64,000 nt of DNA from the NCBI GenBank assembly GCA_001899235.1, contig MKVR01000007.1:124001-188000 (forward strand), read 5' to 3'. Of the stretch, positions 7,731-47,695 are shown one piece after another; the stretch's first letter is position 1; each line of letters opens with the position of its first letter. A program made the translations under genes and the position numbers. The DNA comes from Nitrosospira sp. 56-18 (GTDB lineage Bacteria > Pseudomonadota > Gammaproteobacteria > Burkholderiales > Nitrosomonadaceae). The notes under the pieces are model-generated. The model had not been told where the DNA came from. It searched no databases and was given only the letters and a program-made list of their open reading frames with translations.

Positions 7731-8288
7731 CACGCATTGCATCGGAAAAACTGGAACGCCGCCGTAATTATTGGCCGGGAGGCTTAGAAATGAGTCAAAT
7801 CCGGTATTATAATCGACTCCGCATGGTTTCCCTATTTCCCTGCAGCCGCGTTCCAGGCCGGCAAACAAACCGCTGCCGTCAAACACGCATCGCGCCATCC
7901 AGTGCGGTCTGGGCACGGCCTGAACATTCGCTTTGGGACTCTGTCGGAGTGTAGAATCTCGCGCTCATGCCCGGCTGCACCACGGTTATCATTAAACCTA
8001 AATCCGGCAGATTGGATGGAGTGTGCGGTTCTTGGAGTGCAGGGCAAGACGCTGCAACGAGGAATGACTATTCCATTCCAAGGAGTTGCAACACAGCCAT
8101 GTGGTGCAAAAATCGCGTAATCCGCCTTGTAGCGAACTCACCCTATAGGTGAACGTTAAAGTACTGCGGAAGTCCCTGTGGATCATGGCTCTAAACTGGA
8201 AATGCGCAGTCAACTGCCGGATTTAGGTTAAAGCCTCTACCATAAAAATCAAATTCGCGAATAAACCAGACACAAAGGAAGCTGCGGC
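7731..8288. other. Intergenic region aroA-cysK holding a family A element
   Basis: A 558-base divergent gap. Its right half is the family A repeat (7992-8231). In the left half I see a TATAAT hexamer near 7806 but no well-spaced -35 and no plausible gene. Confidence 0.5.
7992..8231. repeat. Family A MITE-like element, copy A1 (complete)
   Basis: 240-bp element with terminal inverted repeats of about 18 bp: left TTAAACCTAAATCCGGCAG (7992-8010) and right end complementing it (8214-8231), one base indel apart. Internal sequence shared with copies at 14230-14420 and 25753-26012 includes an ATTCCATTCC block and a GTTGCAACACAG block. No ORF of note is inside. TTAA stands at both ends, either as part of the TIR or as a target duplication. 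Confidence 0.8.
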
Positions 8289-12833: not shown

Positions 12834-12848
12834 CGCCGGACTTCTCCC

Positions 12849-12894
12849 CGCAAAACCGCCGTTGCGCCAGCGGAGATTTATTCAACGCTTCCTT
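12849..12894. repeat. Family B repeat, solo end fragment (B3)
   Basis: 46 bases that in reverse complement read as the left end of family B (AAGGAAGCGTTGAATAAATC, then CTCCGCTGGCG). Only one end is left, just after the stop of the Lpd-like gene, suggesting an internal deletion or one-ended transfer. Confidence 0.6.
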
Positions 12895-12996
12895 GGCCCT
12901 GCAGTGAATTCCGAGGATGAAGCCGGGTCCAACTTTGGGAAGTGATATCGCTCGCCAGCATGGCGGCCAAACAAAATTGTGAAGGACCGTACCGTA

Positions 12997-13945: not shown

Positions 13946-14517
13946 TCGGCAATTTCATCCCCCGTTTTTATTCATACGGAATTCCTTTCCTCCCGCCCGC
14001 TTTGTATCCGTGGCACCCAGGCATCAAAATACAAGGAAGATCCTGAACAAGACCCCGTTGCTGCAGCCGGATGACTGATGCACGCTCCCGCGGGTGAATC
14101 CCGCCATTCGTACCCTTTCCGGCGCCAGTCTTTATAATTGCAATATAATTGCAATGCCAATGCAGTTGTATTGCTCAAGAAAAACACAGACCAAATCCTC
14201 GCTGGCGCAGCGATGGCTTTGCGGGATGGGATGGGCGAAAGGGGACGGAGCGCAATGGTCATTCCATTCCAGGGAGTGGCAACACAGCCGTGTGCCACAA
14301 AAATCACGCAATCCGCCTTGTAGCAGGCTCACCATGGATGAACGTCGAGTTACAGCGGGAAGTCTTTGTGGATCACGTCTCCAAACCGGAAACAAGCGGC
14401 CAGCGGCCGGATTTGGGTTCATATTTATCTTCGCCCTTTTCACGAGATTGAACCCCGGCTTGCTATAATTGCGCGCATGTTCCTGTTGATCTTCTTTACT
14501 GCTCGCTTCACAAGCTG
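13946..14517. other. Intergenic region upstream of mrcA with mosaic repeat
   Basis: 572 bases. It holds a perfect 11-base tandem duplication, TATAATTGCAA (14133-14143 and 14144-14154), a mosaic B/A repeat (14188-14420) and a TATAAT hexamer at 14464-14469 that may serve as the -10 of mrcA; its -35 is unclear. No plausible gene. Confidence 0.55.
14188..14420. repeat. Mosaic repeat: family B left part joined to family A right part
   Basis: 14188-14238 matches the family B left end just inside its TIR (AAATCCTCGCTGGCGC, then GCGGGATGGGATG), and from about 14250 the sequence switches to family A (ATTCCATTCCAGGGAGT ... CCGGATTTGGGTT). Only the family A right terminus is intact. Confidence 0.65.
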
Positions 14518-18809: not shown

Positions 18810-19200
18810 GATCGTTGGTCCAGCTCGGCGAATAGCAGGAAAAATAGGGGGAATCCGTTCTTCAGCCAGCATCAGGCTTAAGGAAGCGCTGAATAAATCT
18901 CCGCTGGCGCGGCGGCGGCTTTGCGGGATGGGATGCGCGAAAGGCGACGACGCGAATGGCGCGGCCGCGCAGGGCGGAGCAGTGTCTTCCGAAAGGAAGA
19001 TGCGACCCCGCAGCGAAATGCCTGCGCCCCAACAAACCTGTGGTGCGGTCGAAGCATCCCCTCCGCTGCCCGATCCCCGCTCTGCGGGGCCCCTCGGGCG
19101 ACGCTCCGGGGGCGCTCCTTGGCATCGTAGCCCCGGCTACGACCTGCGTCGTGCGCCTTATGATCATTCCGATTTTACCAGCAACGCGCTCAGCGCAGAT
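18810..19200. other. engB-coaX gap filled by family B element
   Basis: The 391-base space between coaX and engB is almost entirely the B1 repeat (18878-19218). About 70 bases remain as the engB leader. No other gene seen. Confidence 0.6.
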
Positions 19201-19218
19201 TTATTCAGCGCTTCCTAA
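18878..19218. repeat. Family B MITE-like element, copy B1 (complete)
   Basis: About 341 bp with terminal inverted repeats: left TTAAGGAAGCGCTGAATAAA (18878 on) and right AGATTTATTCAGCGCTTCCT. The inside is GC-rich, shares CTTCCGAAAGGAAGATGCG and a CGTAGCC/GGCTACG palindrome with the copy at 47291-47640 and has no transposase. Its right end encodes the last residues GSAE and the stop of coaX. Confidence 0.85.
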
Positions 19219-25391: not shown

Positions 25392-25616
25392 ATGAAATCA
25401 GGAATTCATCCAAATTATCAGGAAATTACCGTGACATGCAGTTGCGGCAATACCTTCCAGACGCGTTCCACCATGGGCAAGCCACTGCATATCGAAGTGT
25501 GTTCGGTTTGTCATCCGTTCTATACCGGAAAGCAAAAAATCGTGGACACAGCGGGACGGGTGGAGAAATTCCGTCAAAAATACGGCAAGAAGGCCGAAAA
25601 GCAGGCAGCAGTTTAA
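25392..25616 (+). CDS. rpmE: 50S ribosomal protein L31
   Basis: 74-residue zinc-binding L31: [20 protein letters not shown] with the CxC pair, then [15 protein letters not shown] with CxxC. It has its own promoter and an intrinsic terminator. ATG at 25392 with AAGGAG upstream. Confidence 0.96.
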
Positions 25617-25648
25617 GAAAGATAAGAAAGAACTTGTCTGTATGTTTT

Positions 25649-25674
25649 AAAGGCAGCCAATGGCTGCCTTTTTT
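25649..25674 (+). terminator. Intrinsic terminator of rpmE
   Basis: AAAGGCAGCC-aat-GGCTGCCTTTTTT: ten-base stem with a three-base loop and a T run, 33 bases after the rpmE stop. Confidence 0.9.
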
Positions 25675-25695
25675 ATTGGCGAATCATTGCTGCTG

Positions 25696-25725
25696 CCAGG
25701 GCCGGTTAACACTTGCTTCGCACCC
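25696..25725. repeat. Family C palindrome, left half copy
   Basis: CCAGGGCCGGTTAACACTTG followed by CTTCGCACCC matches the left arm and start of the centre of the palindrome at 6362-6422. The right arm is missing; a family A element begins 28 bases later. Confidence 0.5.
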
Positions 25726-25752
25726 ACGACGGTGGCAGACATGAAACGCGCA

Positions 25753-26012
25753 TTAACCTGAATCCGGCAGTTGGGCAGGGTCGAGTGTGTGATTTTTAGA
25801 GTGCAGGGAAGGCGCAATGACGCGGAATGGCTATTCCATTTTCCAGGGAGTTGCAACGCAGCGATGTGCCGCAAAAATCGCGCAATCCGTCCCTGTACGT
25901 CCCATGCAGGTGGGTACGTCCCATGCAGGTGGATGTCGCGTACCGCAAAAAATTTTTATGGATCATAGATTTAAACCGGAAATGAGCGGTCAGCTGCCGG
26001 ATTTGGGATTAA
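25753..26012. repeat. Family A MITE-like element, copy A3
   Basis: About 260 bp with left end TTAACCTGAATCCGGCAG and right end CTGCCGGATTTGGGATTAA, an imperfect inverted pair. It has a small internal duplication, TACGTCCCATGCAGGTGG twice near 25896-25932, absent from copy A1. The right 55 bases are read as the start of the downstream M48 protease gene. Confidence 0.8.
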
Positions 26013-27475
26013 CCCTTCTCTCCGGACTGGCCTGCCTGCTGCTGGCCGCCTGCGCGGTCAATCCGGTTACCGGAAACAGGAATTTTACCCTGTTGTCGGA
26101 AGCGGACGAGATGCGCAAAGGGCAGCAGGCGGCTGTAGAGATAGGCAAGACGTATGAAGTATATGACGACCTGCCCGCATTGCAGGCATATGTCGATGAA
26201 ATCGGGCAGAAGCTGGCAAAAAGCAGCCATAGACCCAAGCTAGCCTATCATTTCACCGTTGTTGACAGTCCCGAGGTGAATGCGTTTGCCCTGCCTGGAG
26301 GCTACATCTACGTAACCCGCGGCATCCTGGCATATCTCAACTCTGAAGCCGAGCTTGCCGCCGTGCTGGGGCATGAAATCGGCCATGTCACGGCGCGGCA
26401 CAGCGTCCAGCAATACAGCGCTGCAACCGCCGCCAACGTCGCCACCACCGTTGGGGGGATCGCCGCGTCAGTATTCCTCCCGCAACTCGGAGGGCAACTG
26501 GCCCAGGGCATTCAAAGCCTCCTGGGGTTTGGCGGCGACGTTCTGCTTTCAGGCTATGGGCGCAGCCATGAACTGGAGGCAGATCGTCTCGGCGCCGAAT
26601 ATCTGGCGCGAAGCGGTTACGATCCACAAGCTATGATAAGGGTCATCGCCGTGCTCAAGAACCAGGAGCTGTTCGACATCGAGGTCGCACGGGAGGAAGG
26701 GCGGAAGCCACGGCGATATCACGGTCTGTTTGCCTCTCATCCGGATAACGATACACGGCTGCAGGAGGTGATCGCCGAAGCACAGCAGTATACGAAGCCC
26801 GGTGTGGCGGATGACCGGCGCGAGGAGTTCCTGCACCACACCCAGGGGATGATTTTCGGCGATTCGGCCAGGCATGGGATCGTAAGGGGAAATACCTTTC
26901 AGCATGGGGAAATGGGGTTCACGCTGTCATTTCCTCCCGAATGGCGCATTCAGAACCAGCCTCAGGAAGTCGTGGCGACCAGTCCCGACGGAAAAGCGCT
27001 AATGGCTTTGAGCCTTCTCGACAAGGCCCGCGGTTCGCCTGCTGATCTTGCGCGGGATCGTCTCCGGCTCGATTCCGCCGTGCAGATATTATCGATGACC
27101 AGCAATGGCCTGCCTGCCGCGATTCTGAATTCGCCGCCAGAATGGGATGGAAAGCCATTCAAGGCAGGTGTCATCTATCTCGGGGATAACGCATACCTTC
27201 TTGCGGGCAGGGGCGATTCTTCCGAAGCATTCGATCGTCACCGGGAAGAAATTTCCGGGACTATCGAAAGCTTTCGCGCACTTTCGGATAGGGAGAAAAA
27301 ATCGATCAAACCCCTGGAGATCAAGACCATCAGGGTCACCAGGGGCACGACCTATGGCAGCCTTGCAGCGAAGTCCCCTTTGGGAAGCCACGCGGAAAAT
27401 TACCTGCGCCTGCTCAACGGGCATTATCCCGCCGGAGAGCTGGTGTCCGGTCAGATTATCAAGGTCGTTCAATAA
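25958..27475 (+). CDS. M48-family zinc metalloprotease, lipoprotein (BepA/YfgC-like)
   Basis: 505-residue envelope protease. Signal peptide ends in the lipobox LLLAAC (C32). The zinc site is HEIGH (139-143) with the third ligand in ELEADRLGAEYL (about 205). The mature start NPVTGNRNFTLLSEADE is typical of M48 lipoproteins. The C-terminal half (about 310-490) resembles a PA-type accessory domain. The start ATG at 25958 and about 16 codons of the N-region lie within the family A3 repeat; an alternative ATG at 25985 also does. Likely role: outer-membrane protein quality control, inferred from the family. Confidence 0.85.
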   Translation: MDHRFKPEMSGQLPDLGLTLLSGLACLLLAACAVNPVTGNRNFTLLSEADEMRKGQQAAVEIGKTYEVYDDLPALQAYVDEIGQKLAKSSHRPKLAYHFTVVDSPEVNAFALPGGYIYVTRGILAYLNSEAELAAVLGHEIGHVTARHSVQQYSAATAANVATTVGGIAASVFLPQLGGQLAQGIQSLLGFGGDVLLSGYGRSHELEADRLGAEYLARSGYDPQAMIRVIAVLKNQELFDIEVAREEGRKPRRYHGLFASHPDNDTRLQEVIAEAQQYTKPGVADDRREEFLHHTQGMIFGDSARHGIVRGNTFQHGEMGFTLSFPPEWRIQNQPQEVVATSPDGKALMALSLLDKARGSPADLARDRLRLDSAVQILSMTSNGLPAAILNSPPEWDGKPFKAGVIYLGDNAYLLAGRGDSSEAFDRHREEISGTIESFRALSDREKKSIKPLEIKTIRVTRGTTYGSLAAKSPLGSHAENYLRLLNGHYPAGELVSGQIIKVVQ

Positions 27476-47087: not shown

Positions 47088-47695
47088 GCTGCACTGGGCA
47101 AGCCCGGCCTGGAAGGCCGCCCGGTTCACAAATTGCGCCCCGTTCCCTGTATGGCGGGGTTCGGTCTAGCCGGTTCACGTCTGTATGCAGCCATTCATGC
47201 TCTGGTCCGGCGTGGATGGCAACGGGCAATACCGGCAGCGATTCCGGTTGCCTGATGCCTGTCATTCAGTCAACATCGATGTCCTGTATATTAAGGAAGC
47301 GCTGAACAAATCCTCGCTGAGCGCGTTGCTGGTAAAATCGGGATGATCACAAGGCGTGCGACGCAGGTCGTAGCCGGGACTACGAGCCAGGGAGCGAAAC
47401 GCGATGGCTCCCCAGAGCGTGGCCCGAGGAGCCCCGCGAAGCGGGGATCGGGCAGCGTCGGGGATGCCAGACCGCGCAAGGTACTGTTGGGGTGTCAACA
47501 GCCCGCTACGGGGTCGCATCTTCCTTTCGGAAGACACTGCTCCGCCCTGCGCGGCCGCACCATTCGCGTCGTCGCCTTTCGCGCATCCCATCCCGCAAAG
47601 CCACCGCCGCCAATGAGGGTTTATTCAGCGCTTCCTTAACAAGAAATAATAGCCATAATTGATCGTAGTAACCGGTCTGACAACATGCGACATTC
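47088..47695. other. Intergenic region with family B element upstream of yciB
   Basis: 608 bases. The left 200 bases hold nothing recognised; 47291-47640 is the B2 repeat; the last 55 bases are the yciB leader. Confidence 0.5.
47291..47640. repeat. Family B MITE-like element, copy B2 (complete, inverted relative to B1)
   Basis: About 349 bp bounded by TTAAGGAAGCGCTGAACAAA on the left and its inverse (TTTATTCAGCGCTTCCTTAA) on the right. Internal blocks shared with B1 (CTTCCTTTCGGAAGAC, GCGCGGCCGC) appear in reverse order, so this copy is in the opposite orientation. No transposase inside. Confidence 0.85.

Follow-up and report, generated by a model that had tools for sequence, protein, structure and literature searches.

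A copy of a miniature inverted-repeat transposable element (MITE), designated A3, lies in the signal-peptide codons of a gene for an M48-family lipoprotein metalloprotease, and we put at about 60% the probability that the protease was rescued by a start codon inside the right end of the element. The MITE sits in this chromosomal lipoprotein gene at ATTAA, in codons 4-6; the native ATG is stranded upstream and stopped in A3 after six codons, with the protease frame otherwise intact. Initiation in the right end, with ATG 25982 and ATG 25958 as the likeliest sites, would still yield the protease, from a transcript that would begin upstream of A3; output and export of the protease would probably be reduced. 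We infer from the sequence that the cell uses the repeat's start. Coordinates are those of the window, the whole stretch of 64,000 nucleotides that was analysed.

Position of A3 in the M48 protease gene

Read from ATG 25958, the protease gene occupies 25958-27475 on the plus strand and matches Pfam PF01435 (9e-42). The Peptidase_M48 score was 143 bits versus a cut-off of 20.3, and the HEIGH motif is present. For BepA (NF052400) the score was below the curated cut-off, at 136.5 bits versus 570. The lipobox Cys codon is at 26051-26053 (plus strand). Directly upstream lies a gene for ribosomal protein L31 (25392-25616, plus strand; tblastn), which we take from its sequence to be rpmE and used as a synteny marker. 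It is followed by a terminator-like hairpin at 25649-25671 on the same strand (consensus scan; one found, mean of shuffles 0.7).

A3 is non-coding, with inverted repeats at its ends, and occupies 25757-26007 on the plus strand (251 bp; profile ends 25753-26011). Its right inverted repeat, CAGCTGCCGGATTTGGG, is at 25991-26007 (plus strand) and the left partner at 25757-25773. The target duplication ATTAA stands on both sides, at 25752-25756 and 26008-26012. The preliminary description of this DNA had suggested that the repeat replaced the native 5′ end of the gene and possibly its promoter. In fact the native ATG survives to the left of A3, in ATG AAA CGC GCA TTA A, and its ribosome site scores -5.1 kcal/mol. 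Reading from it now gives MKRALT followed by a TGA in the left end of the element, six codons after the ATG (25741-25761, plus strand). Loss of the promoter is likewise unsupported: A3 does not reach into the DNA preceding the native ATG, and a consensus scan of 25600-26100 found no sigma-70-like promoter on either strand, other promoter types being possible.

A3 entered the gene at codons 4-6, where the target is ATTAA. When A3 and one ATTAA were removed, the sequence became ATG AAA CGC GCA TTA ACC CTT CTC TCC GGA, which translates as MKRALTLLSGLACLLLAAC-AVNPVTG, and the gap-closed frame has a single stop, at the gene end. The gap-closed reading, MKRALTLLSGLACLLLAACAVNPVTG, is by its predicted features a normal lipoprotein signal; the empty site before insertion would read ATGAAACGCGCATTAACCC. 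When the left flank was shuffled, 7% of the shuffles had an in-frame ATG 3-8 codons ahead of the junction.

We also compared the locus with orthologues found by a protein search of 125 genomes of the family. The close orthologues are loci L010-L029; L029 is cut before the start, leaving 19 readable. The named loci closest to the protease are from Nitrosospira and Nitrosovibrio, which suggests that the DNA comes from an ammonia oxidizer of Nitrosospira type. In all 19 loci (L010-L028) rpmE is directly upstream of the M48 gene, and in all 19 an ATG stands 20-22 codons before the lipobox Cys. Ribosome-site energies of these 19 starts ranged from 1.2 to -6.1 kcal/mol; the M48 gene usually has a weak ribosome site. 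The repeat peptide was present at none of the 19 starts, as would be expected if the repeat had brought it, with L022 a possible exception. This locus (the same region as L044, from Nitrosovibrio sp. Nv17) has an in-frame MSGQKRPDR 33 codons before the Cys, which resembles the MSGQLPDLG of the repeat. The profile detected no repeat at L022 at E up to 5.

The MITE family, its ends and its target

The repeat at the start of the M48 gene is a genuine MITE copy, as had been proposed. A profile built from its own genome (G000, a 3.29-Mb draft in 54 contigs) and refined over several rounds gave a consensus of ~235 bp flanked by terminal inverted repeats, CCTAAATCCGGCAGTTG; 36 stretches were examined, namely the window and 35 fetched stretches. 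With the refined profile, A3 is among 37 full-length copies in G000. As a BLAST query A3 gave 43 matches in this genome, itself included, the best other at E 3e-64, so that the matches of the repeat go far beyond chance. The consensus also found matches in 18 of 23 genomes of the genus. A wider set of 115 copies comprises 36 from G000 and 79 from ten further members of the genus, the latter drawn from 80 stretches of relatives hand-picked among the longer matches to the family.

The target of the MITE is WTNAW, 5 bp that are duplicated beside the ends. At the five duplicated positions the two sides matched in 29-32 of 37 copies, versus 3-13 of 37 at the twelve neighbouring positions. Exact 5-bp duplications flank 17 of the 37 copies in G000 (5000 reshuffles: mean 3.0, maximum 11) and 64 of the 115 copies from 11 genomes (2000 reshuffles: mean 9.7, maximum 20). 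The element is a MITE: it is short, with terminal inverted repeats and a target duplication, and is present in many dispersed copies that carry no transposase.

Two other copies lie in the window on the plus strand: A1 (7997-8227), with TTAAA on both sides, and the partial copy A2 (14250-14421). The right end of A3 had been described as the same sequence that ends A1. The two are homologous, with differences: they agree at 44 of the last 55 aligned columns and at 176 of 265 over the whole pair. A 67-bp mini-element elsewhere in the genome (G000:C14:12295-12361, L292) has the same ends and a perfect ATGAA duplication; the MITE ends are common to shorter subfamilies. The window also holds a second repeat family, at 18884-19216 and 47294-47610, 14182-14252 and 12847-12901, with inverted pairs about 90% alike.

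Two properties of the element were considered and rejected. Its RNA fold is not a strong switch, being only 1.7 SD below shuffles, with 4 of 100 shuffles folding as well. A preference for insertion at sites resembling the right end is not general: targets gave a mean of 6.68 matches of 26, versus 6.65 against the ends of other copies. Outliers in this comparison are relA in L248 (19 of 26) and L260 (26 of 26).

We found no autonomous partner with the same ends beside matches to PF13701, which are present in 6 of 23 genomes of the genus. In 20 fetched stretches, 19 of them around unpaired ends, there was no long pair of ends with a matching duplication.

Start codons left to the protease and alternative readings

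The claim that the MITE supplies the start codon of the protease was borne out in the following form: between the last upstream stop and the lipobox, every in-frame ATG, GTG or TTG is inside A3. These are ATG 25817, ATG 25904, GTG 25910, ATG 25958, ATG 25982 and TTG 26003, all on the plus strand. The preliminary description was correct in placing an ATG at 25958 (25958-25960) and the in-frame peptide MDHRFKPEMSGQLPDLG ahead of the hydrophobic core. This ATG has no ribosome site, and the family consensus has GTG at this position; the ATG is common to copy L146 and thus is no adaptation to the M48 gene. ATG 25982 (25982-25984), at -26 from the element end, opens MSGQLPDLG 23 codons before the Cys. 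An ATG is present at the -26 position in 77 of 115 right ends, and it falls in frame here since TNA of the target serves as a codon (TTA). TTG 26003 (26003-26005), part of the right inverted repeat, is 16 codons from the Cys and largely paired in the predicted fold. For both ATG 25982 and TTG 26003, the ribosome-site pairings merely abut the codon. Loss of the right-end ATG where a gene adjoins was unsupported (ATG in 17 of 26 copies with a gene versus 57 of 84 without; p 0.81).

Read from the A3 starts, the signal retains the hydrophobic core and the lipobox Cys, LTLLSGLACLLLAAC, and the Cys aligned with that of the orthologues. The n-regions MDHRFKPEMSGQLPDLG and MSGQLPDLG are without net positive side-chain charge, whereas the stranded native MKRA is positively charged. 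Orthologue L022 (MALPASGLN) likewise has no charge in its n-region. Three points count against use of the repeat's starts: the weak ribosome sites, the n-region without positive charge and the absence of the gene in many relatives.

These same points would fit an insertion that was a knock-out or nearly so, in which the frame is open for lack of time and the right-end ATG is in frame by chance, as in one of three frames. We consider this unlikely, though it is the alternative to be taken most seriously. It agrees with the perfect duplication and the intact native start upstream, with the weak starts and with an n-region that is uncharged or negative. A close M48 orthologue is present in 15 of 23 genomes of the genus, its own included, and the other 8 have only distant M48 matches; loss of the gene is thus tolerated.

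The state of the gene argues the other way. The M48 frame is open to 27475, with 474 residues after the Cys without a stop, and its conservation is normal. At 196 sites invariant in 16 other sequences (three near-duplicates of >97% having been dropped), 5 are changed here; relative to branch length this ranks 9th of 17, and the number of changed invariant sites is not high for the branch length. A3 is also among the more diverged copies, which speaks against a very recent insertion: its terminal branch is 0.172 (IQ-TREE) or 0.156 (FastTree), the 7th longest of 62 tips (median 0.083) in a tree where at least two tip pairs are one copy fetched twice. In a neutral simulation of frame survival, with 400 trials per branch length, the probability of remaining free of stops was 0.115 at 0.05, 0.025 at 0.08, 0.02 at 0.12 and 0.0025 at 0.17. 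The branch length is only an upper bound on the time since insertion, and frame survival is therefore moderate evidence of use. A second in-frame case, in relA, also weighs against a knock-out; because the same anatomy arose there independently, rescue looks like a property of the right end and not a single accident.

Initiation at ATG 25817 (25817-25819), with a long N-terminal extension, is very unlikely. This codon is in an open frame and has the best ribosome-site energy of the candidates, -7.3 kcal/mol, but it is 78 codons before the Cys, and a lipoprotein signal read from it would carry ~65 residues ahead of its hydrophobic core, whereas the nearest start of normal length in the orthologues is 20-22 codons from the Cys (19 loci).

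The 5′ region of the M48 gene carries traces of the family in two relatives. In L014 (G096) a decayed copy lies ~15 bp upstream of the native M48 ATG (profile E 2e-8), and in L013 (G100) the corresponding place holds a shorter remnant, recognized by its likeness to L014 (profile E 2.9, other strand). Together with A3, these remnants show that this region was struck at least twice. They would suit a history in which the repeat first lay ahead of the native ATG and the native start was then lost by deletion, a course made most improbable by the perfect 5-bp duplication, the left flank that runs in frame into the gene, and a distance from the rpmE stop to the native ATG that fits copy-free relatives.

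Other genes at the element ends and relation to known systems

To look at other insertions, flanks were joined across all 115 copies, and 18 rows passed the filter. Six of these face right: the M48 gene, relA of G100 (L248), L126, L145, L216 and L245. L126 had no Pfam match, and L145 is of the rsmI family with its start beyond the element. In relA of G100 the duplication is TTCAA/TTCAA. Reading from the native start now gives MSNELPDSAST and ends at a stop in the element; an in-frame MSDQLPDSGSIALPEHSS is regained from the right end. As in the M48 gene, the right-end ATG owes its frame to the target TNA, which serves as a codon (here TCA). By its sequence, relA of G100 is a second case, independent of the M48 insertion, in which the native start is stranded and a right-end ATG stands in frame. 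The relA insertion of G100 is contained in L248 and L317. A close relA orthologue is present in 22 of 23 genomes; G108, which is 80% complete, shows only a paralogue.

The new N-terminus of relA in G100 nearly equals the MSDELPDSAS of the element-free L319 (G096). The relA starts L319-L326, and by a hair L328 and L329, fit the right-end profile better than any of the 250 background gene starts, whose maximum was -25.75; relA was scored by the best of 1-4 in-frame ATGs and the background by the first ATG, which somewhat favours relA. The relA starts of L318, L327, L330, L331 and L333-L338 were not above these 250 background starts. An old right end may be the origin of the relA start, or the likeness may have another cause.

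A gene of DUF192 type was hit differently. In G094 (L223/L297) and G113 (L298) the left end of the element stands directly before the signal sequence, and the ATG of relatives such as L299 (ATGCGCATTCTT) is replaced by TGGCGCATTCTT or TGGCACATTCCT. Upstream in-frame starts inside the element are TTGs in G094, and TTGs plus an ATG further up in G113. This case is weaker because L306 (G096) and L309 (G100) also have no such ATG, with no element detected.

At the left end, start codons occur in the duplication itself. An ATG there opens a frame of at least 100 codons at the left end of 18 of 115 copies (L121, L129, L131, L141, L144, L184, L189, L191, L195, L200, L205, L226, L229, L231, L234, L239, L243 and L256) and at the right end of 2. 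The expectation, weighted by the observed duplications, was 2.1-3.1 on the left and 4.0 on the right (slack 15 and 75); this null is crude, resting on 144 kb of the element's own genome, simple gene calls and stretches some of which had been picked for their element ends. A slack-0 row (expectation 1.1 on the left) was left out since its design admits no ATGA sites. The match of L144 to a CobD/CbiB-type family begins at residue 1 and that of L129 to an ABC ATPase family at residue 3; L121 belongs to an aminopeptidase family and L141 to the RelA/SpoT family. From their N-termini we take L229 to be TpiA, L243 LepA, L189 Gph and L231 FolD. With sites merged (110), duplication ATGs opened such frames in 21 of 31 cases on the left versus 2 of 21 on the right (p 4e-5, an ATGATG site being counted twice).

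The same asymmetry was seen for long frames in general. A 150-codon frame starting ≤150 nt beyond the element was found on the left only at 57 sites and on the right only at 16 (p 1.5e-6). Counted by copies, with the start-codon copies left out, the numbers were 42 and 16 (p 9e-4). There is a strong orientation bias across 110 insertion sites in 11 genomes, in which the M48 gene belongs to the minority. Of the 115 copies, 104 have one frame with at least 40 open codons on the strand that leaves the left end; in 84 of 115 the duplication contributes TAA, TGA or TAG as the next codon of this left-end frame. This short frame was rejected as a selected protein, the evidence being weak and non-specific. 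It has 73 stops versus 110.8 expected (SD 10.3) and 958 synonymous changes versus 889.7 (SD 24.2), in copies that are non-independent; a second frame on the same strand is also stop-poor (28 versus 55.6), with too few synonymous changes.

A tentative and rather doubtful generalization is that the element has portable start ends. The right-end ATG (MSGQLPDLG) would restart genes hit near the 5′ end with TNA in phase, as in M48 and relA of G100, and the relA N-terminus found in part of the genus (MSDELPDSxS) might be the relic of an older right end, since turned into the native start of relA. The left end would land on ATGAW, so that the stop of its short frame (TGA/TAA) overlaps the ATG of the gene as in coupled translation. 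An insertion near the 5′ end is normally counted as a knock-out; here the element end offers an in-frame replacement start, in two genes of two species. If these starts are used, new N-termini and leaders would arise from a short repeat, and the genus would need its gene starts re-annotated.

Insertion sequences of the IS1380 family, ISEcp1 type, have ends beginning CCTA and 5-bp AT-rich duplications. The MITE resembles them in both respects, but no IS1380-type transposase with the MITE's ends was found among the PF13701 matches in the genus. A search of titles and abstract openings, in which subscription literature mostly lay outside, returned no report of A3's MITE family, nor of a MITE whose insertion cuts off the native start of a gene and provides another.

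Related arrangements have been described in other bacteria, here according to the excerpts of the reports at hand. Rickettsia palindromic elements (RPE) are short palindromic repeats that lie in genes, in frame, and are read as protein (PMC10969869). A3 is like them in being a short repeat inside a gene that would be read as part of the protein; RPE insertions code through in frame, whereas A3 stops the native frame and brings a possible new one with its own start codons. In Coxiella burnetii, annotated genes are overlapped by QMITE1 and QMITE2, which contribute residues to them (PMC5896051). In the excerpt of that report, the QMITEs affect functional genes at 3′ ends and none of known function at the 5′ end, while the cases described here are 5′ ends. 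MITEAba12 of Acinetobacter has start codons near its ends that could allow fusion with neighbouring genes (PMC6382973), as here, although the excerpt of that report does not show the case of a gene. It also differs in having 9-bp duplications and other ends, compared with 5 bp for the family of A3. Fusion of MITEs with genes is thus already known, and what is unusual here is the 5′ variant.
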